Positions 206-51,002 of a DNA stretch of 51,002 nt are shown here, in pieces. The stretch covers positions 1-51,002 of the forward strand of contig CAIVDS010000035.1 in the NCBI GenBank assembly GCA_903904685.1. Direction: 5' to 3'. Numbering within the stretch: the stretch's first letter is position 1; each line of letters begins with the position of its first letter. Both the position numbers and the translations under genes were made by a program. The DNA comes from an uncultured Verrucomicrobiota bacterium. Lineage in GTDB: Bacteria; Verrucomicrobiota; Verrucomicrobiia; Opitutales; Opitutaceae. The notes under the pieces were generated by a model. It saw only the letters and a list, made by a program, of their open reading frames with translations, did not search any database and had not been told where the DNA came from.

Positions 206-642
206 TTGAGATGGGGAGGCGGTTCGTTGATGAGCAGCCAGTAGAGACCGAGCTGGCGGGCGGCCTCGATGAATTGCTCGAAGTCCACCGGCTTGCGCAC
301 GTAGCTGTTCGCGCCTAGCTGGTAGCCCGCCACCATGTCCTGCTCTTCTTTCGACGAGGTGAGGATGACCACGGGTTGCAACGCGGTCCTGGAGTCGGCG
401 CGAATGCGGCGCAACACCTCCAGCCCGTCGAGTTTCGGCAGCTTGAGATCGAGAAACACGACGGCCGGACGATCGCCCATGTCGCGTCCGGCGAACCGGC
501 CCGTGCCGAAAAGATAGTCGACGGCCTCCACCCCGTCGCCCGCGACGATGATTTCGTTGCCAATCTTGTTTTTATTGAACGCCCGGAGCGTGAGTTTCAC
601 GTCGTCGGGATTGTCTTCCACGAGCAGGATTTTGCCATTCAT
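202..642 (-). CDS. Rcp1-like single-domain response regulator
   Basis: This 146-residue protein is a receiver domain with no output domain. The acidic pocket is VEDNPDD at residues 8-14, the phospho-acceptor Asp is D65 in FLDLKLP, and the conserved Lys lies in VRKP near residue 118. The long loop between helix 1 and strand 2 and the GVEAVDYLF motif are typical of the Rcp1 family, which accepts phosphate from phytochrome-like and PAS histidine kinases. The ATG at 642 was chosen because the receiver fold starts there and AGGAGA sits 6 nt upstream; the open frame continues further upstream but has no domain. It lies 16 nt downstream of the kinase gene, so the kinase is its likely phosphodonor. 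Confidence 0.88.
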   Translation of the reverse strand: MNGKILLVEDNPDDVKLTLRAFNKNKIGNEIIVAGDGVEAVDYLFGTGRFAGRDMGDRPAVVFLDLKLPKLDGLEVLRRIRADSRTALQPVVILTSSKEEQDMVAGYQLGANSYVRKPVDFEQFIEAARQLGLYWLLINEPPPHLK

Positions 643-658
643 GCGTTTCTCCTTCGAA

Positions 659-3367
659 TTACGTTGATGCCTCGATGTTAAACCAAAACGTTGCGCCCTT
701 GTCCACCTCTCCCTCGGCCCATACCCGGCCGCCGTGGCGGTGGACGATGCGCTGCACGGTCGCCAGACCGATGCCAGAGCCGGGAAATTCCGCGCTGCTG
801 TGCAGCCGTTGAAACGCGCCGAACAGCCTTGCGGCGTAGGCGGCGTCGAAGCCGGCGCCGTTGTCCCGGACGAAGCAGTCCATCCGCCCGATCCGCCGCA
901 CCGCGCCAAACTCGATGCGGGCGTGTTCGCGCCTGCCCGTGAATTTCCACGCGTTGCCCAAAAGATTGTCCAGCACCACGCGCAGCAGGCGCGGATCGCC
1001 CCCGGCCACGATGCCGTCGGCCACCGCCAGTTCCACCGCCCGCCCGGGTTCGCGCTGCCGCAGATCGGCGACGACGGCGCGGGCCAGCGCGCTCAGGTCC
1101 ACCTGCTCGCGGTGCAGTTCGGCGCGTGTGCAGCGAGAGAGGTTGAGCAGGTCGTCGATGAGTTCCGACATGCGCTGCGCGGCGGCGCGAACACGGCCAA
1201 GATTGTCGCAACCTTCGGCGTCGAGCTTGTCGGCGTAATCCTCGAGCAGGATGCTGCTGAAGCCGTCGATGCTGCGCAATGGAGCCCGCAAATCGTGGGA
1301 CACCGAGTAGGAAAATGCCTCGAGCTCCTTGTTGGCGGCCTGAAGTTCGCCGGTGCGTTCGGCCACGCGTTTTTCCAACTCGGCGTTCAGGTGGCGGAGG
1401 GCCTCTTCCATCCGTTTGCGCTCGGTGATGTCCTGCACGATGCCGGCCATCCGCACCAGCACGCCTTCCGTGTTTCGCTGATGTCTTCCGGCGGCCATGA
1501 TCCAACGCGTTGCGCCATCGGCGCGACGGATGCGGCATTCAAAGTTCCAATCGGTTTGCGCCGTTGTCGCTTCACGGAACTTTCGGTCCACCTCCGGACG
1601 ATCCTCGGACAAAACGTGTTCAAGAAACATCTCGTAGGTCCACTGCGGCAACAGCGTCTCGTAGCCAAAAATCCGATCATGGGTCGGCGTTCGATACGCG
1701 GAATGCTTCAGCAGGTCCAGTTCCCATGCGCCGGTCTGGATCGTTTGCAGGGCGAAGTTCAACCTATCTTCACTGGCCCTCATTTCATTCTCCGCCCGCT
1801 TGCGCTCGGTGATGACGTCGAACACGGCCACAAAATGTCCGGGCGCCGGGCGATACACCGAAACCCAGAACCACATCTGCAGGACGTTGACGAACGTCTC
1901 GAAATGTTCGGGCTGGCCGGTACTGGCGACCCGTCCGTAGCATGCGAACAGTTCCGGGTCGGACTCGCGGATGCCGGGAATAACCTCGGAGACCTTTTTG
2001 CCGACGACGTTTTTCAGCCCGGTCTGCTTTTCAAAGGCGTCATTGACGGCGAGGTAGATGAAGTCATCGGGGTTTCCATCCTCGAACAACATCCGGCAAT
2101 AAGCGAAGCCGTTGAGCATGTTTGCGAACAGGGAACGATAGAGTTCCTCGCTCTTGTGCAGCGCCAATTGAATCTTCGTTATGTCCGTGATGTCCGAACC
2201 CGTGGTGATGAAGTATTCACCCATCGGAACGCTCGTGAACCGGAAATATTTGTCCCCCGGCTGGGGAAAGTGGTCCACAAAGGAATACGGAACACCTTCG
2301 GTCATGATCTTCTGCACCATCGGCATGAAATGCTCCGTGGCACCGGGATAGATTTCATCGGCCATTTTCCCAATGGTGTCTTCGCGCGACTTACGGCCCC
2401 AAGCCTTGAGCGTGGGCGCGTTCACGTCAACCACCTGCCAAGTCTTGATTTGACCGCGCTCATCGCGGACCAGTTTCCAGAAATGCACTTCCTCGGCCAT
2501 GTTCTCGAACAGGTTCCGGTATTTCGCTTCGCTTTCCCGCAACTTATCCTCCGCCTGCTTGCGCTCGGTGATGTCCTGGAAGATACAATGAGTTTGCCGG
2601 AAGCTGCCGTCGGGATTGTGCGCGATGCTTCCTGCAAAGGCGACGAACCTCCGCGCGCCATTCTTGCGGATCATCTCAAACTCGGAATGAATTTTTCCCG
2701 CCGCCTTGAACATCTGAAACCGCTGGCGGAACGCCTCCACGTATTCCGGGGCAAGGAAATCGCCGAACCATTTGCCCATGACCTCTTCCTTGCCGTAGCC
2801 CAGGGTGGTCAGCCAGGCTTCATTGACCACGATGAAGCGACCGTCCGCATCGAGCGACTGGTAGCCAAGGGGTGCTTTTTCGAACAGATTGGAGAGATGT
2901 TCCTCGCTCGTCCGCAGCGCCGCCTCCGCCTGCTTGCGCTCGCGGCGCCTGGCCGCCTCGCGCAACTCGCGTTGCACGGCGGGCGCGAGCCGCGCCAGCT
3001 TGCCCTTCATCAGATAATCATGCGCCCCCGCCTTCATCGCCGCCACGGCCACGTCCTCGCCGATCGTGCCCGATACGACGATGAACGGCAGGTCGAGACC
3101 GCTGGCCTGCAGCAGCTCCAGCGCGGCCAGCCCGCTGAAACGCGGCATGCTGTAGTCGGAAATGACAACGTCCCACGGCTGGCGACCCAGCGCGGCTCGC
3201 ATCGCCTCGGGCGTGTCCACGCGCTCCCACGTCACGTCGTAGCCGCCGGCGCGGAGTTGGCGAAGCAGCGGCACCACGTCGTCTTCCGCATCCTCGACGA
3301 TCAGGCAGCGCAGCGGTCGGGCGGTGACGACACGGTGGTTTTCCCCACCCTTAGGTTGTGTGCTCAT
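659..3367 (-). CDS. Hybrid sensor histidine kinase: receiver plus four PAS domains
   Basis: The 902-residue protein reads, in order: a receiver (about 20-135, phospho-acceptor D71 in VISDYSMP), four PAS/PAC units (about 155-650, three closed by DITERK- or VITERK-type PAC ends), a HisKA domain with [11 protein letters not shown], and a HATPase domain with N box [11 protein letters not shown]1 DNGAGFD and G2 GSGIGLATV. There is no transmembrane segment, so it is a cytoplasmic sensor. An N-terminal receiver means that it may also receive phosphate. ATG 3367 is chosen because the receiver begins just after it; there is no clear ribosome binding site, and the frame stays open for 86 more codons upstream. 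Signal unknown. It forms an operon with the response regulator downstream. Confidence 0.9.
3130..3248. repeat. Direct repeat, receiver copy 2
   Basis: Second copy of the 119-base identical segment found at 1-119, here inside the receiver of the PAS kinase. It supports a recent duplication or gene conversion between neighbouring receiver genes. Confidence 0.85.
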
Positions 3368-3581
3368 GGGACGGCGCAGGCTTGCAATGTGCCGCCGGAA
3401 TCCTCCGTTGATGCATCGTGCGGCGAAAAAAATCGTAATGACATGACGAACCCAGTCAACGGGATCCTGCGGGGCAGACCGGAGCTGGAAACGGAAGACC
3501 TGAAGGATAAAACTGGAAACCCAAGGTTGGCGCGCGGCCTCCGGGCGCGTTTTCAAAACCGGCGAACGGCGCCGATTCCGC

Positions 3582-4796
3582 TCAGAAGGTGTGCGTGAAC
3601 AGGCCCGAGCGCAGCTTCGGCTCAAACCAGGTGCTCTTCGGCGGCATGATCTGGCCCGCGTCGGCGATGGCCATGAGCTGCGCCACCGTCGTTGGAAACA
3701 TCGAGAACGCCACGCCGCCCTCGGCGTCCACGCGCTTCACCAACTCGCCGGGACCGCGGATGCCGCCGACAAAATCCACGCGCTTGCTGGTGCGCGGATC
3801 TTCGATGCCGAGCAGCGGGGCGAGCAGCTTGTCCTGCAGCACGCTCACGTCGAGCCGGCCCACCGGGTCGGCCTTGGGATCGACGGGACAGCGAAGGCCA
3901 TACCATTTGCCGCCGAAATACATGCTCACCCGCCCGCCCACGGCGGGCGACGGCACGGCGTTTTCCTCAAGACCGAAGACGGCCTTCACCTTGGCGAGAA
4001 ACGCCTCGGGCGCGTGGCCGTTGAGATCAAACACCACGCGGTTGTAAGGCAGAATCTTGAGTTCGCTGGCGGGGAAAAGCACGCAAAGGAACCAATTGTA
4101 ATCCTCGGCGCCGGTATGCGCGGGGTTCTTCTCGCGACGAAGCCGGGCCACGCGGGCCGCGCTGGCCGCGCGATGATGGCCGTCGGCGATATAGCTGAGG
4201 GGCACGCGCTCAAACGCCTTAACCCATTCCGCTCCGCCGGCGATGCGCCACGCGGTGTGCCGGATGCCGTCCGGCGCGGTGAAATCGTGCTGCGGCGCTT
4301 CCTTGACCTTGGCGTTGACGAGCGCGGTGACGGCGGCCTCATCGCGATAGGTCAGGAATACCGGACCGGTGTTGGCCGCCAGCGTATCGATGAGACGGGT
4401 GCGGTCGTCCTCCTTGTCCTTGCGGGTCTTCTCGTGCTTCTTAATGAGCTCGGCGTCGTAGTCCTCGACATTGCAGACCGCGACGAGGCCGCGCTGGATG
4501 TGGTTGCCCATTTGCTGCTGATAAACGTAAAGGCAGGGGCCGGATTCGCGCACGAGCACGCCGTCGCGCTGGAGGGCGAGAAAGTTTTCGCGGGCCTTGT
4601 TGTAAACAGCGGCGCTGTAAGGATCGGTGCCGACGGGCAGGTCGATCTCGGCACGGTCAACATGGAGAAGGCTGCGCGGCTTGCCGGCGGCGAGCGCGGC
4701 GGCCTCGGAGGCGTTGACGACATCGTAAGGAACGCAGGCCACTTCGGGCGCGTGCGCGGGAACCGGGACAAGACCTTTGAAGGCATGGATTCGCAT
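3582..4796 (-). CDS. DUF1015 family protein
   Basis: A 404-residue soluble protein that matches the DUF1015 family from memory of its conserved blocks: [11 protein letters not shown] near residue 22, then [17 protein letters not shown] near residue 138, and the block [12 protein letters not shown] near residue 200. The family is widespread in bacteria, often near serine or D-3-phosphoglycerate genes, and has no assigned reaction. Full length and uninterrupted; the ATG at 4796 is the first start. It is 69 nt downstream of the DNA polymerase gene on the same strand, so it may be co-transcribed with it, but the two functions are not obviously linked. Confidence 0.8.
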
Positions 4797-7400: not shown

Positions 7401-7761
7401 GGTAAAAGAGTGACACTCCGCCTATGCCGTATGCCCAAAGGCTCGAGAACCTTTTTGAGATAAGGTGGGCGCCTCCGGATGGTTTCATGCTTTCCGATTT
7501 ACGGCCTAGCACTCCGCCGCCCGTTCCGGCTCCCGAATAATTTCAAAGGAAAAGAGCAGTTATTGAAAGCACCTCGAACACTGCAGGGTGTCGGCAGAAA
7601 GGTAGGTCTGTCACGGGCACCGTCAACCGCCATCAGTCGATATTTTTTGATTTTTATTGAAAAATCCACTCATGCCCATGCCGCCACGCATGCCGATCAA
7701 CGCACCGCAACCTTCATGAGCCCATCGCGAACGAGCAGCAGGCCGCGCCAACGGCAGACGA
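7401..7761. other. Intergenic gap, 361 bp
   Basis: It separates two minus-strand units: the 3' end of the ClpS pair on the right and the start of the membrane protein-polymerase unit on the left. It should contain a terminator and a promoter, but I see no convincing hairpin with a T-run and no clear -35/-10 pair. The plus-strand frame running through it is arginine- and serine-rich in its last third and looks non-coding. Confidence 0.4.
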
Positions 7762-8620: not shown

Positions 8621-10390
<1,770 letters not shown>

Positions 10391-25737: not shown

Positions 25738-26514
25738 TCAGCCGCCGAAAGTGGAATGGGCGGAGCGCCACCAGTGATAGTAGGTCGTCTCAAGTTCATC
25801 CTTGGAGGGCATGGGAAAATAAACGAAGCCCCCGCCGGCCGAAGCGGCGTAGAAGCCCTTGCGCAAGGTGCGATAAAGGACGTCCTGCTGAAGAAAACGT
25901 ATGACCGTTTTGGTGGACTTGCCGGGCTTGGTGTAGAACTCGCGCAGGCAGTCGCGCAGATGCGGCATGTTGGGATAGGGCAGATTATCCACGTCGGGGG
26001 CGTCGGCGTTTTCAGCGAGACGCTCCAACTTGAGCTCGGCGAAAACAATAGCCGGCAGGGAAACCTTCTGGCTCAGGTCGGTGATGCGGGCCGCGAACAC
26101 CTTTGGGTCGAGCGTGCTGACAACGCGCGGCGTGACGGGACAAAACTCCTGATAAAGGTGCATCCGAGGAGCGGCGTCAGACTCGTAGGTGCCGGGTTTC
26201 AGCGTGAGATTACGCCCATCCTCGGTAATAAGGTGCAGCGATTCGAGGGCCGTGAGCGGCACCTGTTCGAGCACGCGGTAAATCGAAAGATACGACGAAC
26301 GGCGGGCGGGCCCTCCTGGCTGGCCCAAATCGGAACCGATGCCAAGCCGGGCGAACTGCTGCTCGGCGTAGCCATCGGTCAGCTTGAAAAAAATAGCCTG
26401 GCCTCGAGCCCGCTTTTGCGTGCCGGTTGCCAAGTAGGCGCCGTAATCCTCGGGGTTAAGATGCGAGGCGACCAAGGCCTCGGGAAGGAGTGTCATGTAG
26501 AGGTATGTTTTCAT
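25738..26514 (-). CDS. Conserved-looking protein of unknown function
   Basis: A 258-residue soluble protein beginning MKTYLYMTLLPEALVASHL. No signal peptide, membrane segment or known motif. It contains LPEALVASHLNPEDYGAYLA and a closing SKDELETTYYHWW block with many aromatic residues. It is a clean frame with normal composition and an AT-rich upstream region, so it is very likely a gene. It is 54 nt upstream of hppA and probably co-transcribed, but nothing shows a link to pyrophosphate. I do not recognise its family. Confidence 0.7.
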   Translation of the reverse strand: MKTYLYMTLLPEALVASHLNPEDYGAYLATGTQKRARGQAIFFKLTDGYAEQQFARLGIGSDLGQPGGPARRSSYLSIYRVLEQVPLTALESLHLITEDGRNLTLKPGTYESDAAPRMHLYQEFCPVTPRVVSTLDPKVFAARITDLSQKVSLPAIVFAELKLERLAENADAPDVDNLPYPNMPHLRDCLREFYTKPGKSTKTVIRFLQQDVLYRTLRKGFYAASAGGGFVYFPMPSKDELETTYYHWWRSAHSTFGG

Positions 26515-26579
26515 GGCAATAATACAGGTGATAAAACGATAATCCGAATTATTTTTATATTAGAATATTTTATACAACG

Positions 26580-26595
26580 ACTGCTGCGCAGCAGT
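26580..26595. promoter_or_regulatory. 16-nt perfect palindrome between divergent genes
   Basis: ACTGCTGCGCAGCAGT reads the same on both strands. It lies in the space between the leftward unknown gene-hppA unit and the rightward clpP, beside a strongly AT-rich stretch (26520-26579) that has the look of a promoter for the leftward unit. It may be an operator. No regulator gene is adjacent. Confidence 0.3.
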
Positions 26596-26768
26596 TGGCC
26601 AAAGTTACGCAGTGGTTGCGAAACTCATGTGCCCTCCTGCAACCCGCTTCCCCGACAATGCCCTGCGGGACCGCCATGCCATAAACAACGGCAACGTCAT
26701 TTTAGGCCTCCATCATGTGTCTCCTCGGCACTTGCCAAGCGCCTAACGGCACGCAACGTGGTTCCATC

Positions 26769-27425
26769 ATGCATTTCGACAATCTCCAGCCCGGTCTCTC
26801 CGCCCCTTTGCCTCGCGCCGACGATGACGAGGATGACGACGACAAGGAATCTGACGCCACCGTCAAGAAGGCCTCTGCGCCCGTCGCCATGCTCATCCAG
26901 AAAAAGTTCCTCGATGAACGTAAGATTTTCCTCTGGGGCGCCGTAACCGACGAGACGGCCAAGGACATCACCGAAAAACTTCTCTACCTCGAAGCCAAGG
27001 CTCCCGGTAAGGAGATTTTCTTCTACATCAACACTCCCGGCGGATCCATCACCGCCGGCATGGCCGTCTATGATACCATGCAACTCGTCACCTCGCCCAT
27101 CACCGTGATTGTCACCGGCATGGCCGCCTCGATGGGTTCCATTCTCCTCTCGGGCGCCAAGAAAGGCCGCCGCCTTCTCTATCCGCACTCGCGCGTACTC
27201 ATCCACCAACCTCTCATCTCCGGCCGCATGGTCGGTCCGGCGACCGACATCAACATCCAGGCCCGCGAAATGGAAAAACTCCGCGCCGAGCTGAACGAGA
27301 TTCTCGCCAAGGCCTCCGGCCAGCCCATCGAGACCATCAATCGCGACACCGACCGTGATTTTTATCTCAACGCATCGGAAGCCATCGCCTACGGCCTGGC
27401 CGACAAGATCGTGAACAAAATCTGA
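26769..27425 (+). CDS. clpP: ATP-dependent Clp protease proteolytic subunit
   Basis: A 218-residue serine peptidase that forms the ClpP barrel. Catalytic triad: S121 in TGMAASMGS, H146 in LIHQP, D193 in NRDTDRDF. Before the ClpP core (from about residue 40) is an acidic N-terminal segment with a run of Asp/Glu (DDDEDDDD), longer than usual. ATG 26769 is the internal start used because homology and the acidic segment begin there; the frame is open for 18 more codons upstream. A strong terminator follows. ClpX is not beside it; ClpS is elsewhere in the window. Confidence 0.92.
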   Translation: MHFDNLQPGLSAPLPRADDDEDDDDKESDATVKKASAPVAMLIQKKFLDERKIFLWGAVTDETAKDITEKLLYLEAKAPGKEIFFYINTPGGSITAGMAVYDTMQLVTSPITVIVTGMAASMGSILLSGAKKGRRLLYPHSRVLIHQPLISGRMVGPATDINIQAREMEKLRAELNEILAKASGQPIETINRDTDRDFYLNASEAIAYGLADKIVNKI

Positions 27426-32363: not shown

Positions 32364-33455
32364 ATGACACCGAAAGAACGAATGCATGCGGCGCTGGAGC
32401 GCAAACCCGTGGACCGGGTTCCCGTCTTCATGTGGTTTCATCCCGAGACGAGCGCGCGGCTTGGGAAGCTGCTGGAGATCCCCGCCGGTCGGGTGGACGT
32501 CGCGATGGGCAACGACGCCTGCCAGACTTGGGTGAACAACAACTACGCCATGGAAGGCATCGTCCACGAGCGCGACGGCGAATCGCACACGGACGACTGG
32601 GGCATCCGCTGGGTCAAGGACGGGGCGTTCAACCAGATCGACCGCTACCCGCTGGCCGGCGCCGCCGATGCCGCGACGGTGCTCGCCTACCGGTTTCCGT
32701 ATCGGCACCGGGAAAAACTGCTCCGGCAGATGGAACCGGTCGCGCGCGCCGCCGGACAACGGTTTCTCGGCTGCGACATTTCGCCGTGCGGGTTCGAGAT
32801 GTATTGGCGGCTGCGCGGGATGGAGAACGCCCTGCTGGATTTTGTGGGCGAGCCCGAGCTGGCGTCGGAGATGGTGGGGCGCTGCGCCGACTTCGCCATC
32901 GCGCTCGGGGAGGCCGCCTGCGAGAGATTCCCCTTGGATTGGTTGTGGACCGGGGACGATGTGGCGAGCCAGACCGGGATGATGATGAGTCCGGCCATGT
33001 GGAGGGAAATCGTCCGTCCGCATTTGCAGCGCGTCTTCGACGTCGGGCGGAAACGCGGGCTGTGGGTCGCCTACCATTGCTGCGGGGCCCTGCGGCCCAT
33101 CATCGGCGACCTGGTGGAAATGGGGCTCGATGTGCTCAACCCCGTTCAATGCAATTGCCCCGGCATGGACGCCGCGGAACTGAAAAAGGAATTCGGCGGC
33201 AGGCTCGCGTTCATGGGCGGCGTGGACACGCAGGACACGCTGCCCAACGGCAGCGCCGACGATGTGCGCCGGGCCACGCGGCATCTGCTGGATGTGATGA
33301 CCGCGGACAGAGGCGGTTACATTCTGGCGGCCTCGCACACCATTCCGCCCGAAACGCCCGACGAGAATATCTTCGCGATGTATGCCGAGGCGGGCATCAC
33401 GCGGGAAGAGATCTTCGATCACGCGGCGGCCATTCGGAAAAGCCTCCCGTCCTGA
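32364..33455 (+). CDS. Uroporphyrinogen decarboxylase-like (MtaA/CmuA-type) protein
   Basis: A 363-residue TIM-barrel protein of the URO-D superfamily. MTPKERMHAALERKPVDRVPVF at the N-terminus and GGVDTQDTLPNG near the end are family blocks. YHCCGALRPII and VQCNCPGMD supply His and Cys residues at the place where methylcobamide methyltransferases bind zinc. HemE has a different N-terminal motif, so this is more likely a methyl-transfer relative, the kind present in many copies in Verrucomicrobia and Planctomycetes. The acceptor is unknown. No corrinoid protein is adjacent. It is divergent from the EamA gene. Confidence 0.8.
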   Translation: MTPKERMHAALERKPVDRVPVFMWFHPETSARLGKLLEIPAGRVDVAMGNDACQTWVNNNYAMEGIVHERDGESHTDDWGIRWVKDGAFNQIDRYPLAGAADAATVLAYRFPYRHREKLLRQMEPVARAAGQRFLGCDISPCGFEMYWRLRGMENALLDFVGEPELASEMVGRCADFAIALGEAACERFPLDWLWTGDDVASQTGMMMSPAMWREIVRPHLQRVFDVGRKRGLWVAYHCCGALRPIIGDLVEMGLDVLNPVQCNCPGMDAAELKKEFGGRLAFMGGVDTQDTLPNGSADDVRRATRHLLDVMTADRGGYILAASHTIPPETPDENIFAMYAEAGITREEIFDHAAAIRKSLPS

Positions 33456-33476: not shown

Positions 33477-33875
33477 GCACCCTCTGCCGCGAGGGTCCGC
33501 AATCTCCATCCGTTGGTATAACGGGCCCTCATGGAGCCTCAACCGGCTTCGACGGACGGCCAGTCGGCATGACCGGACAGCTCTGCGGATGCACCCGACA
33601 GCCCAAAACCCATCGCCACCGTGCCAACACCTTTCGCGATCAAAGGCTGGGGATGCGTGGATGAGGTAGGGCGAGGCGTCTCTGCCGAACCGCGGCTCAC
33701 CGGGGCGGTTCGCCCTGCCATTCTGATACCTTTGACTGCGAAAAGGTATAAAACCCCCATCATCGGCGCTCAAAAGGTAGGCCCAGAAGCCAAAAACCCT
33801 TTCGCCACTGCGCAATAGGCTGCAAACGAAGGAGAAAACAGCCTCATTGACGCTAAAACCGACTTCGCCAACAGA
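33477..33875 (+). repeat. Dispersed element, conserved part, copy A
   Basis: It begins 21 nt after the UroD-like gene stop and matches 50438-50813 in the same order and orientation, with many substitutions and small indels. Shared blocks include CCTCAACCGGCTTCGACGGA, CGATCAAA followed by GATGCGTGG or AATGCGTGG, an imperfect GC-rich palindrome around CCGCGGCTC flanked by GGGCGAGGC and GGTTCGCCC, GATACCTTT, and CTTCGCCAAC just before a 21-nt array. No protein-coding frame is convincing across both copies. Confidence 0.75.
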
Positions 33876-34274
33876 GATTCGGGAAGCATTTTCGGTGATT
33901 CTTAATCCGTAGAAGGAAGATTGGAATCCATAGAAGTAAGTTCGCCTTCCATTGAAGGAACATCGCCTTCCATAGAAGCAAGTTCGTCTTCCGTAGAAGG
34001 AAGATTGGAATCCATAGAAGTAAGTTCGTCTTCCATAGAAGGAACATCGCCTTCCATAGAAGTAAGTTCGCCTTCCATATAAGGAAGATTGGAATCCGTA
34101 GAAGTAAGTTCGGGTTCCATAGAAGGAAGATCGGAAGCCGTAGAAGGAGGTTCGGAAGCCCCATAAGTAAGTTCGGAAGCCATAGTCGGCGTGTCGGAAT
34201 ACTTTTTAGGATTGGCGGAATCTGTTTTCGGATTGTCTGAAGCCATTTTTGGATTGTTGGAAAGGGTTTTTGTG
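33876..34274 (+). repeat. 21-nt tandem array, copy A (about 19 units)
   Basis: Nineteen degenerate units of exactly 21 nt, for example GATTGGAATCCATAGAAGTA in the left part. From 33906 to 34262 there are 17 units without a length change. A higher-order period of four units (84 nt) is visible: units 1, 5 and 9 carry GGAAGATTGGAA, units 3 and 7 GGAACATCGCCT. The right-hand units drift toward TTTTTGGATTGTTGGAA, close to the array at 50814. Because 21 is a multiple of three, several frames stay open; the minus strand encodes heptads such as SMEGDVP and SMDSNLP (33902-34312) in one frame and LLLWIPI in another. Confidence 0.9.
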
Positions 34275-34379
34275 CAACCAGCATGCACCAACGGCAAAAA
34301 AATCATCGCCAACAGACAGTCGGGAGTCGCCGGAAGCCCAAACCGTCCGCCAGCGAGCAGTCGGCTACCGGCTCTCCGC

Positions 34380-34491
34380 TTTCACCCTTCACTCTTCACC
34401 GTTCACCTTTCCTATTTCCGCCCTCCGCTTTCACCGTTCACCATTCTCCATTCGCTTTTCACCCTTCACCCTTCACTCTTCATTCCTCAAC
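34380..34491 (+). repeat. Heptamer array, 16 units
   Basis: Sixteen 7-nt units around the consensus TTTCACC / CTTCACT / GTTCACC, without length change. It is pyrimidine-rich on the plus strand. It stands between the 21-nt array and the truncated integrase-like gene and resembles the short tandemly repeated heptamers known in cyanobacteria and some other bacteria. Confidence 0.85.
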
Positions 34492-37709: not shown

Positions 37710-37738
37710 GGAGTGTCCCAGTGCGTGGTTGTTTTCGC

Positions 37739-37812
37739 AGCAGGAGTCATCAGCGCCGGCGCACGCGCCGGGCGGTTTACCCGGAGACCGGGAAGGCAGA
37801 ATCCATTGCCGG
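37739..37812 (-). promoter_or_regulatory. Fluoride riboswitch (crcB motif)
   Basis: On the minus strand the conserved parts appear in order: GGCAATGGATTCTGCC (first stem-loop with ATGG), then AAACCGCC, a GC-rich stem CGGCGCGTGCGCCG, and GCTGATGACTCCTGC. These are the fluoride aptamer's landmarks. The region between the first stem and AAACCGCC is extended by an extra small stem. The aptamer ends 29 nt upstream of crcB. Confidence 0.85.
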
Positions 37813-37887
37813 GAAAAAGAGATTCCGTCCGGCGTGCCGTGTCAAACGGCTTTTACCCGCGCAGGAGAAAGGGTCGCCGGCTCTCTC

Positions 37888-48319: not shown

Positions 48320-48634
48320 GGCTTGTGTGTTTTGTTTGTAGGTCGGCCTGGTCTTCCCCGCAGTTTGTCCGCGGCGAATGTTTTAGCCGGGTTCTCCCTA
48401 GCAAATCATATGCCAAGCAAGGACCCTGCGGCGATTCTCTGCACGGAAAGGGCGTATCACCCTCTGTCGACCGCCCGTTCGGTGCCGCGTTCAAACCGCC
48501 CCGGCTTCGCCAAGGCATCCCATCGGTCCATTCGGCAACGGCCAAGCCAAGGGGTCGCTTGACAACAAGATCGCATGAAACCACCACAACTCACCGTGAA
48601 CCTGAAGCCGACCGGGGAATCCCGGCCAATCGTC
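48320..48634. other. Divergent intergenic region, porin / SGNH hydrolase
   Basis: It holds the sigma-54-type site for the porin at 48400-48416. A TTGACA at about 48558 could be a -35 for the rightward gene, but no -10 stands at the right distance. Nothing else is visible. Confidence 0.4.
48400..48416 (-). promoter_or_regulatory. Sigma-54-type promoter for the porin gene
   Basis: Minus strand TTGGCATATGATTTGCT. It matches TGGCAY-N5-TTGCT, with the invariant GG and GC separated by exactly 10 nt. The expected transcript start is about 48388, giving a leader of about 70 nt before the ATG at 48319. A sigma-54 activator would be needed; none is in the window. Confidence 0.6.
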
Positions 48635-50341
48635 ATGACTACCCTTCGCACCGCCGCCTGTCTCGCGCTTTTTTCCCTCCTCCTCGGCCTCGCCCTGCCC
48701 GGCGTTTCGCTCCGAGCCGACACCATCGTCCGCGACAACGACCGCATCCTCTTCTGTGGCGACAGCATCACCGCCCAAGGCTGGAAAGGCGGCAAAGGAG
48801 GCTTCGTCTCCATGGTCGCCCAAGCGATCACCGACGCCCACCCCGGCTGGCACATCTCCGTCAACGCCCTCGGCGCCAGCGGCGCGGCGGTCGGCAGTTG
48901 GCAGGGCATGGAGATAAAAAGCCGCACCCAGCCCGTCTTCCTCGACAAGCCCGACAGCCCCACGCCCATGGAGGTCAAATCCGGCCTCGATGCCGGCGCC
49001 GACATCGTCGTCGTCATGCTCGGCATGAACGACCTCCTCTACCCCCAGGTCTCCGAGAAACCCGCCGACCTCGACGCCTGGAAAAACCGCTACCACGACC
49101 TCGTCGAAGCCATCCGCGCCCGCGCCCATCCGCGCCTGTTCGCCTTCGGCACCATCACCCCGCTCACCGAGGATCTCGACGGCCCCAAGATTCGCATCGA
49201 GAACGAACTCAACCACCGCCTCGTCGAGCTCGCGCAGGAAGAACACGCCGTCATCCTGCCCACCCACGAGGCCGCCGTCGAATACCTCAACCTCGGTCGC
49301 GGCTACAAGCCCGACTTCCACTTCGCGGGCGACTTCGTCCACCCCTCCATGCCTGTCGCCGTCGCCGTCGGCATGTTGCGCGGCCTGGGCGAGACCGACG
49401 CCGCCGAGCGGCTCAAGCAGAAATACGCCGGCGTCTACCTCCCCGCCGACAAGGACCTGCCCGCCCTCTCCTACGCCTTCGACATCCGGCCCGGCACCCC
49501 CGATGACGCCAAACACACCTTCGTCATCCACTACCAGTGGACGCCGCCGACCGCCTCCTCCTCCAACGTGAACGTCACCGCCACCGTCCCCGCCGGCTGG
49601 GACGTCGCGCCGCCGAGCCAGACCGCCGCGAAAGGCGACTTCACCGTCTCCGGCCCGCTCGACCGGCTCGTCAACAAGATCACCCTCGTCGCCGCCGCCG
49701 GCGACCTCGTCCGCACCGCCGAGGTTGTCATCCCCGCCGCCTGGCGCATCGCCACCGGCCCCGGTCGCGGTCTCGGCCTGATTCGCGGCACCACCGATTT
49801 CGATCCCGCCAAGGACATCGAACCTCTCGACCAGACCCTCCGGCAGGATTCCGCCTGGCTCGCTCCCGTCACCTTCGACGGTGCGCACGGCGAGCAGACC
49901 ACGCCGCCTTGGCAACGCTACATCGCCACCGTCAACTACCCCGGTCGCGGCGCTCCCGGCAGCGTCGATCTTTCCGCCGTCGGCTTCTTCCAGCAGCGCG
50001 ACATCGCCTACGGCGCCCGCTGGATTCGCAGCGACAAGGACCGCACCGTCCAGGTCACTCTCGGCTCCCAGACCTTTACCCGTGTCCACGCCGAAAGACT
50101 CTGGATGAACAACGACCTCCTCTTCGAGGGCAAGGTCTTCGCCGCGCCCCGCACCCAGGTCGTCGTCGACGCCAAACTCCGCGCCGGCTGGAACCGCCTC
50201 TGGTTTTATTCCAATTTCTTCCAGTGGCAGTGGCAGTTCTCCATCGATCTCGCCGGCAAAGACGGCGACGACCTCTCCGACCTCCGCTACGCGACGACGC
50301 CCCCCGCGCCAGGCAGTCCCGCCTTGGCAATCAAGCCTTAA
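48635..50341 (+). CDS. Secreted SGNH/GDSL hydrolase with C-terminal domain
   Basis: 568 residues. Signal peptide LRTAACLALFSLLLGLALPG. SGNH domain (about 32-265): nucleophile S44 in FCGDSITAQG, Gly in ALGASG, Asn132 in GMND and D233/H236 in GDFVHPS. The C-terminal 300 residues are a beta-rich domain of unknown kind that ends in a WNRLWFYSNFFQWQWQF aromatic block and may bind carbohydrate. Families like this deacetylate or de-esterify polysaccharides; the substrate is not known. An upstream ATG at 48575 would add 20 residues before the signal peptide. Part of a carbohydrate-related zone with the GH95 gene, but not in its operon. Confidence 0.85.
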   Translation: MTTLRTAACLALFSLLLGLALPGVSLRADTIVRDNDRILFCGDSITAQGWKGGKGGFVSMVAQAITDAHPGWHISVNALGASGAAVGSWQGMEIKSRTQPVFLDKPDSPTPMEVKSGLDAGADIVVVMLGMNDLLYPQVSEKPADLDAWKNRYHDLVEAIRARAHPRLFAFGTITPLTEDLDGPKIRIENELNHRLVELAQEEHAVILPTHEAAVEYLNLGRGYKPDFHFAGDFVHPSMPVAVAVGMLRGLGETDAAERLKQKYAGVYLPADKDLPALSYAFDIRPGTPDDAKHTFVIHYQWTPPTASSSNVNVTATVPAGWDVAPPSQTAAKGDFTVSGPLDRLVNKITLVAAAGDLVRTAEVVIPAAWRIATGPGRGLGLIRGTTDFDPAKDIEPLDQTLRQDSAWLAPVTFDGAHGEQTTPPWQRYIATVNYPGRGAPGSVDLSAVGFFQQRDIAYGARWIRSDKDRTVQVTLGSQTFTRVHAERLWMNNDLLFEGKVFAAPRTQVVVDAKLRAGWNRLWFYSNFFQWQWQFSIDLAGKDGDDLSDLRYATTPPAPGSPALAIKP

Positions 50342-50437
50342 AAACCAAGTGCGGCGGCCCATCGCCTGCCCGTATAAATCGATACCGCTCGCTCCGGCCC
50401 CTTCGGATTGACCCCGACCGGCTTGTCTGGTGCCAAC

Positions 50438-50813
50438 GCGCACTCTGCCGAGGGTCAGCAAACTCCTACCATTGGCAAAACCGGCTTCTCCGGAGCCTCA
50501 ACCGGCTTCGACGGACGGCAAACCGGCATGGCCGGACGGCCTTGGGGCTGCCCCGATGGGCAAACCTCTTCGTTCCCGCGCAACACCCTTTCTCGATCAA
50601 AAGCCTAGGAATGCGTGGTGACGGTTGGGCGAACCGTCCCGGTGAGCCGCGGCTCGGCAGGGATGCCTCGCCCTACCCTTTTGATACCTTTTGAATGCGA
50701 TAGGGCGCAAAAGGCCTTTGCCGGCACGCCCCAAGTCGACCCCGAGGGGTGAAAAACCTTGGCCATCGCGCAAAATGCTTCCAACCAGGAGAAAAAGGCT
50801 TCGCCAACGCAGA
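50438..50813 (+). repeat. Dispersed element, conserved part, copy B
   Basis: It matches 33477-33875 in order and orientation: CTCTGCCGAGGGTCAGCAA at the left, CCTCAACCGGCTTCGACGGA in the middle, the GC-rich palindromic block around CCGCGGCTC, GATACCTTTT and CTTCGCCAACGC at the right end, where a 21-nt array begins. It lies about 95 bp after the stop of the SGNH gene, as copy A lies just after a gene stop. No gene is seen from 50342 to the window end. Confidence 0.75.
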
Positions 50814-51002
50814 GTTGGGAATAGTTTTTCTCATGTTTGGAATAGTTGATGCAATGTTGGGAATAGTTAATCGAGTGTTGGGAATAGTTTTTGTGATGTT
50901 TGGAATAGTTAATCGAGAGTTGGGAATAGTTTTTTCGATGTTGGGAATAGTTTTTCCAGTGTTGGGAATAGTTTTTTTGGAGTTGGGAAATGTTGGCGGA
51001 GA
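50814..51002 (+). repeat. 21-nt tandem array, copy B (9 units, runs off the edge)
   Basis: Nine units of exactly 21 nt, GTTGGGAATAGTTTTTNNNNN, fill 50814 to the last base of the window. Only the last five positions and a few others vary. Both strands have open frames; the minus strand reads heptads with TIPN (KTIPNIE, LTIPNIT), the plus strand LGIVF. The array starts at the same place relative to the conserved element as the one at 33876. Confidence 0.92.

Follow-up and report, generated by a model that had tools for sequence, protein, structure and literature searches.

A 21-nt DNA array paired with a downstream orphan gene recurs in an Opitutaceae genome

What is the intergenic element that occurs twice in this 51,002-nt stretch of an uncultured Verrucomicrobiota bacterium, and what, if anything, goes with the 21-nt array that ends it? 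The stretch, which we call the window, is contig C35 of genome G000, an assembly of 3.23 Mb in 114 contigs. A preliminary description of the window had proposed a dispersed element, found in one orientation, in which a conserved block and an array move or evolve together.

The two copies in the window

Both copies are present where the preliminary description placed them, at 33477 and 50438, and both are indeed preceded by a same-strand gene stop. Copy 1 begins 22 nt past the stop of a gene of the URO-D family (32364 to 33455, plus strand; gene call, Pfam PF01208, E 4.2e-27). Copy 2 follows a gene of the GDSL lipase family (48575 to 50341, plus strand; gene call and domain match); with its start taken as 50380 it lies 39 nt past the stop at 50341, while BLAST puts the start of its front at 50430. 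In a genome BLAST search, 33477 to 33900 matched 50443 to 50700 at 76% identity over 260 nt of the query. The front block of copy 1 (33477 to 33600, plus strand) is GC-rich and itself phased at 21 nt, and it matches 10 other loci of the genome, including the front block of window copy 2 (50430 to 50570, plus strand, by BLAST).

The conserved block had been described as about 400 nt long. Its front is shared, but about 33630 to 33770 is a separate inverted-repeat element that also occurs on its own elsewhere. In copy 1 this nested element matches sequences on C113, C22, and C9 on both strands and has a fold z of -3.3 on the plus strand. Its counterpart in copy 2 has approximate outer limits of 50605 and 50700, within which 50627 to 50677 matches the copy 1 element, on the opposite strand too. 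The element is dispersed and MITE-like, of the form GGTAGGGCGAGG...CGGTTCGCCCTACC, and is found on C105 as well, both nested in array elements and alone. A second MITE-like element, about 150 nt long and with termini resembling AGCGTTTCAAGTGAAACTGTAGCC, was recognized by eye at C14 (about 2060 to 2215) and C67 (about 9325 to 9470), either nested in an array element or next to one. C14 also matches C19 over 155 nt.

A link segment leads into each array. In copy 1 it spans 33791 to 33900 (plus strand), contains CTTCGCCAACAGAGATTCGGGAA, and is common to other loci of the family; in copy 2 it spans 50741 to 50813 (plus strand) and ends CTTCGCCAACGCAGA, as placed by BLAST comparison of loci. The string CTTCGCCAAC occurs in both, at 33863 and at 50799, and as described an exact 21-nt array follows it in the same register. 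The copy 1 array (33912 to 34268, plus strand) has 17 units without an indel, at 25% mismatch to its own consensus, and the copy 2 array (50814 to 51002, plus strand) has 9 units and runs up to the contig end. That the two arrays differ in sequence and share a phase was borne out. The common core (G)TTGGAAT that had been proposed is weak: TTGGAAT occurs in 3 of the 17 units and in 2 of the 9 units of the second array, which reads mostly GTTGGGAAT.

Only copy 1 (33477 to 34375) is complete. Its array is followed by a conserved tail (34256 to 34375, plus strand) that is common to C12, C19, C21, C58, C85, C87, and C98. Directly 3' of this tail, at 34381 to 34482, the heptanucleotide TTCACCC is repeated 14.6 times; among the relatives sampled, tandem repeats most often have period 7. 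Copy 2 is cut by the contig end, and its last 129 nt are the start of contig C12, the sole such overlap in a comparison of 12 of the 114 contigs. C12 continues with the end of an array and the tail, and then with a remnant (23 C-terminal residues) of the orphan gene discussed below. The two contigs are thus likely joined, with copy 2 continuing into array, tail, and gene remnant. On C12, a gene for an MmeI-like restriction-methylase (602 to 3832) comes after the array and the remnant.

Arrays and front blocks across the genome

Further copies in the genome had been set as the test of a dispersed element, and we found them. In 831 kb of nonredundant sequence from the window's own genome, a sample picked partly for holding copies, there were 31 regions of period 21, a few of them weak, at about 30 array loci. 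At the same threshold, periods 18, 20, 22, and 24 gave 2, 2, 0, and 0 regions. With a lag score and codon-phase controls, 710 kb of this genome held 29 regions of period 21 versus 0 to 3 for each of nine other periods. By the same score, 385 kb from six relatives held one region of period 21, and 0 to 3 of other periods. A further 172 kb, from 20 contigs taken by number, held a single period-21 region, at a contig end. Contigs C19, C113, and C9 each carry a second array. One copy used as a DNA query had no match at E 1e-6 among the best candidates (up to 12 per genome) in 55 relatives.

The units of these arrays fall into many sequence families, and in some regions the phase persists through about 40 units of changing sequence. 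When units were compared between array families, similarity reached p 0.05 in 11 of 66 pairs, and in 8 of 66 by a second run, which falls short of showing a common ancestry of all units. Among gene-bearing arrays, unit similarity had no strand preference (37 of 66 pairs).

How firmly does the front block go with the array? The block occurs at 11 loci, with an array downstream in 10 of them (weak at C17 and C41) and none at C92, and it is absent from most of the roughly 30 array loci. That arrays should occur mostly without the block had been named beforehand as counting against the pairing. Thus, block and array are not a fixed pair, and the proposal that they move or evolve together is weakened. 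The element is dispersed, as proposed, but its single orientation is a tendency: the gene preceding the array shares its strand in 19 of 27 cases (two-sided p = 0.052). Where an array had neither front nor gene, its orientation was assigned by unit similarity. Because some arrays were oriented by that likeness, we did not use the agreement in orientation between array-only and gene-bearing arrays as evidence.

Array and orphan gene form a cassette

A partner that recurs at these loci is a gene for an orphan protein of about 240 aa (family alignment of 12 rows). Searches of Pfam, NCBIfam, PHROGs, and PDB gave nothing significant for the family; the top hits were at chance level (E 0.01 to 0.03), and no DNA-binding, transposase, or Rep domain was recognized. 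In its own genome we found 13 matches to one member and 14 to the family profile. Ten copies are near intact (C113, C98, C94, C19, C26, C9, C114, C43, C14, and C24, with C14 cut by a contig end), and four are short remnants (C4, C42, C49, and C12). A profile search of the genus gave matches in 7 of 13 genomes, its own included. Across 387 genomes of the phylum, among the best candidates (up to seven per genome), matches were confined to its own genome, G010, and G033, the last being partial.

All nine near-intact copies with enough upstream sequence are closely preceded by a 21-nt array of the same orientation; the tenth, on C43, begins 14 nt from a contig end and was left out. The two intact copies in congeners (G010 and G011, one intact copy in each) likewise have a 21-nt array directly upstream, with a different unit sequence. 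When G010 was searched with the DNA of its array region, no second full copy was found. Arrays also lie directly upstream of the remnants on C49 and C12 and of one in the congener G003, and no array accompanies the short C-terminal remnants at C4, C42, G004, G006, G008, and G033. Two of these array-less loci, C4 (2626 to 3230) and G033 (C33, 4358 to 4896), have two small adjacent genes in common (55% and 64% identity).

In nine neighborhoods of 3.5 to 19 kb with an array before the gene, a set that left out contigs C19, C113, and C9, another 21-phased stretch was present in none of eight, and one was present in G011. Apart from the orphan gene, what the loci have in common is limited to nine scattered matches between paralogues (26 to 64% identity) and the synteny between G004 and G006. 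An array at every testable near-intact gene, with little else common to the loci, makes array and gene a recurring unit. Its layout is array, spacer, and orphan gene, the spacer being mostly about 200 to 310 nt long (none on C113 and C26, about 510 nt on C19); conserved sequence 3' of the gene is short and patchy. On C113 the orphan gene has 289 codons and starts inside the array, in phase, so that the array crosses the start codon in phase. These comparisons show that the array and the downstream orphan gene form a cassette, with ten near-intact copies here and one intact copy in each of two congeners. The pairing of the array with this gene is stronger than its pairing with the front block.

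Window copy 1 has no such gene. It matches the array region of C19 at 78% over 550 nt. In all, a match to the array stretch of a gene or gene remnant was found for 15 of the 19 array-only stretches, some of which take in link or tail sequence. The other four, C85b, C21b, C96, and C17, have no match to any such stretch. Three of the 19 (C35b, C67, and C22) are cut by a contig end, so that a gene could lie beyond, and on C47 two arrays flank what looks by eye like a piece of the gene. A congener gave a similar picture: an array-only copy in G011, with no orphan gene in the 6 kb read, is homologous to the G003 array at 78% over 312 nt without a gap. Array-only copies, window copy 1 included, are thus related to the arrays of the cassette.

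Is the gene under constraint? In five close paralogue pairs Ka/Ks was 0.64 to 0.94, with no stops in the aligned frames, and it was not significantly below 1 for C98/C19, C114/C43, and C9/C94. In the C98/C19 pair the last 60 codons are calmer, with 12 of 22 changes nonsynonymous versus 74 of 93 in the rest. Under simulated neutral change the probability of seeing no stop was 0.015 for C9/C94, 0.065 for C98/C19, and 0.27 for C114/C43. Therefore, judged pair by pair, there is a moderate case that the frame is maintained.

Cassettes that lie in largely unrelated neighborhoods, with gene-less copies that resemble gene-bearing ones, could form a transposon-like family. The orphan protein would then be a novel transposase or recombinase, the arrays its subterminal binding sites, and array-only copies its nonautonomous derivatives; in Tn7 and Mu, transposase sites lie about 22 bp apart. 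We consider this quite improbable, since no catalytic domain was recognized in the family and the conserved sequence after the gene is so short and patchy. In addition, no terminal repeats or target duplications were found when boundaries were compared by BLAST, a comparison made without an empty site. The gene before copy 1 had no orthologue in 14 relatives at E 1e-30, and so offered no empty site to compare. A well-known dispersed system of this type is that of REP elements, intergenic palindromic repeats with a cognate Y1 (HUH) transposase, the RAYT, and with gene-less copies. The elements described here are also dispersed intergenic repeats with a cognate gene and gene-less copies, but they have no consistent palindromic structure and no transposase domain by Pfam, NCBIfam, or PHROGs.

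Constant pitch and a putative array-binding protein

The most regular property of the arrays is their pitch. Units of G010, of G003, of G011, and of the window's own genome differ in sequence, and all are 21 nt long. Array and protein families do not run simply in parallel: C19 and C98 encode proteins that are 69% identical and have different array units. In 17 alignments of related elements we counted 118 gaps, of which 55 were at least 15 nt long, and 40 of those 55 were multiples of 21. The remaining 63 gaps were shorter than 15 nt; the front block has many small gaps, and the alignment of C87 with C113 scatters. Across 25 arrays (8,070 nt), there were two one-base deletions, identically placed in a pair of related copies, versus 2,475 mismatches to the cyclic consensus. 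This indel count was made on arrays trimmed to in-phase blocks, and C9 and C47 each have one more one-base shift by eye. Units of these arrays are 16 to 51% off their own consensus. The spacer between array and gene in C9, C14, and C94 is gap-free too, at 17 to 34% mismatch; since spacers also lack indels, the low indel rate may need no selection on phase.

This last point bears on whether the arrays are neutral, satellite-like DNA that grows by unit duplication and spreads by gene conversion or as a passenger, with the orphan gene carried along or itself a selfish gene spreading with its upstream DNA. An abundance that differs sharply from that in relatives and the gain and loss of whole units agree with such an origin, as do the spacers. 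However, units that far off their consensus would have to coexist with only two called indels, congeners have another unit sequence of the same length in the same place before the gene, and the arrays of G003 and G011 (C69) have stayed gap-free over the aligned 312 nt. We regard a neutral origin as unlikely.

We also asked whether the arrays act as RNA. An array could be transcribed, either as the orphan gene's leader or as an RNA of its own, and be bound single-stranded by the protein or an oligomer of it, each subunit taking one 21-nt unit. The arrays are upstream of the gene in the same direction, and many are no more structured than their shuffles, as expected of open RNA. A common fold was rejected: both strands of 14 stretches (13 besides the nested inverted repeat) had no consistent excess of structure over shuffles. 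The exceptions, other than the nested element, were the minus strand of C85b (z -5.6) and several at about -2 to -2.9, the window arrays among them. Against a role as RNA, there is no consistent strand bias in composition between arrays, and array-only copies without a downstream gene are common; we think it improbable. Rfam gave nothing at the window arrays at gathering score, and six other loci had no match even with E values of up to 0.5 allowed. Elsewhere in the window it recognized a 6S RNA (7411 to 7592, minus strand) and a fluoride riboswitch (37734 to 37819, minus strand).

A length of 21 nt is also seven codons, and arrays might encode heptapeptide-repeat proteins. At least one frame is open in 6 of 18 arrays, including the two of the window (for example, the minus strand of 33905 to 34270), and the last units on C113 form the N terminus of the orphan protein. 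However, the strand of the open frame changes from array to array, and the other 12 of 18 have stops in all six frames, a single one in the best frame of 7 of them. As a general account coding was rejected, and we give it very little credence. An exact scan of the genome collection for a GC-rich unit pair returned 40 stretches, mostly from other phyla; 13 of the 40 contain a 21-phased stretch, all 13 are open in at least one frame, and the orphan family is in none of the 40. In viral contigs there were nine matches to the array pattern and no relative of the orphan protein. Two other candidates were set aside: the units vary and have no repeat-spacer pattern of a CRISPR array, and DNA curvature reached p <=0.01 in 2 of 13 arrays (computed with a wedge table), which is not general.

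A protein that binds the array would best tie together three observations: the link of gene and array in more than one species, units that drift at an unchanging pitch, and rapid change in the protein. Our preferred reading, to which we assign a probability of about 45%, is that the orphan protein binds its own helically phased array cooperatively and that the array is a cis-acting DNA site. We infer both the binding and selection on phase from sequence, as predicted functions. Counting against it are the absence of a recognized DNA-binding domain, the lack of simple parallels between array and protein families, the missing strand preference in unit similarity, and the short gene remnants that have no array. 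RNA binding, neutral satellites with a hitchhiking gene, and a transposon stay in competition with it. A pitch of 21 bp is two turns of B-DNA, and every unit then shows the same face. The pitch would be kept because assembly depends on spacing, and unit sequence could drift as long as it matched its own protein. Protein and array would change together, and such joint change fits fast protein evolution. Array-only copies would be derelict cassettes that have lost their gene, or else outlying binding sites. The nucleoprotein might behave as iterons or centromere arrays do, or it might serve in autoregulation. More tentatively, these loci may represent a new class of chromosomal array-binding systems, in which fast paralogous orphan proteins each read their own 21-bp phased array, spacing is selected while sequence drifts, and array-only satellites are scattered after genes.

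Which known systems does this resemble? Plasmid iterons, bound by Rep initiators, and the parC centromeres of ParR are direct repeats about two helical turns apart beside the gene of their binder. By analogy, these would work most like the proposed system, as 21-nt direct repeats lie here next to the gene of a putative binder. The differences are that here there are many loci, different unit sequences, and an orphan protein. Neither Rep nor ParR was recognized in the family, and no partition NTPase recurs as a neighbor; in neighborhoods annotated in part, only the orphan gene recurs. Pneumococcal BOX and mycobacterial MIRU elements are modular intergenic repeats with fixed ends and a variable number of internal units, features that these elements share. 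Unlike them, the elements described here extend over hundreds of bases in diverged units of one exact pitch, lack a consistent RNA fold, and are linked to an orphan gene.

Archaeal Borg elements carry many intergenic head-to-tail arrays of about 20-nt units, each with its own sequence and nearly absent in the host (PMC9879509). The likeness lies in many intergenic arrays of such units with sequences of their own. However, repeats in Borgs are perfect and vary in unit length (18-, 20-, and 21-nt units are named), and about half of them lie in open reading frames (PMC9879509), whereas the units here are all 21 nt and 16 to 51% off consensus. Our literature search, in which most papers were judged by their listing, found no description of such an array with an orphan gene. 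The array before every checkable near-intact gene copy, in two congeners too, points to an undescribed system of DNA array plus protein.

If pitch and not sequence is what is conserved, this would be a bacterial DNA array evolving together with its cognate protein, with several array-protein pairs in one genome and single pairs in relatives. Coevolution of an array with its binding protein would then be directly testable in bacteria, and could be likened to that of centromere satellites with their proteins in eukaryotes. The finding gives the orphan protein family a context and explains a group of intergenic repeats, several of which lie where contigs end. At C47 (about 26168 to 27320), a pair of array elements oriented toward each other lies between convergent genes, and what appears by eye to be a remnant of the orphan gene is at their junction.
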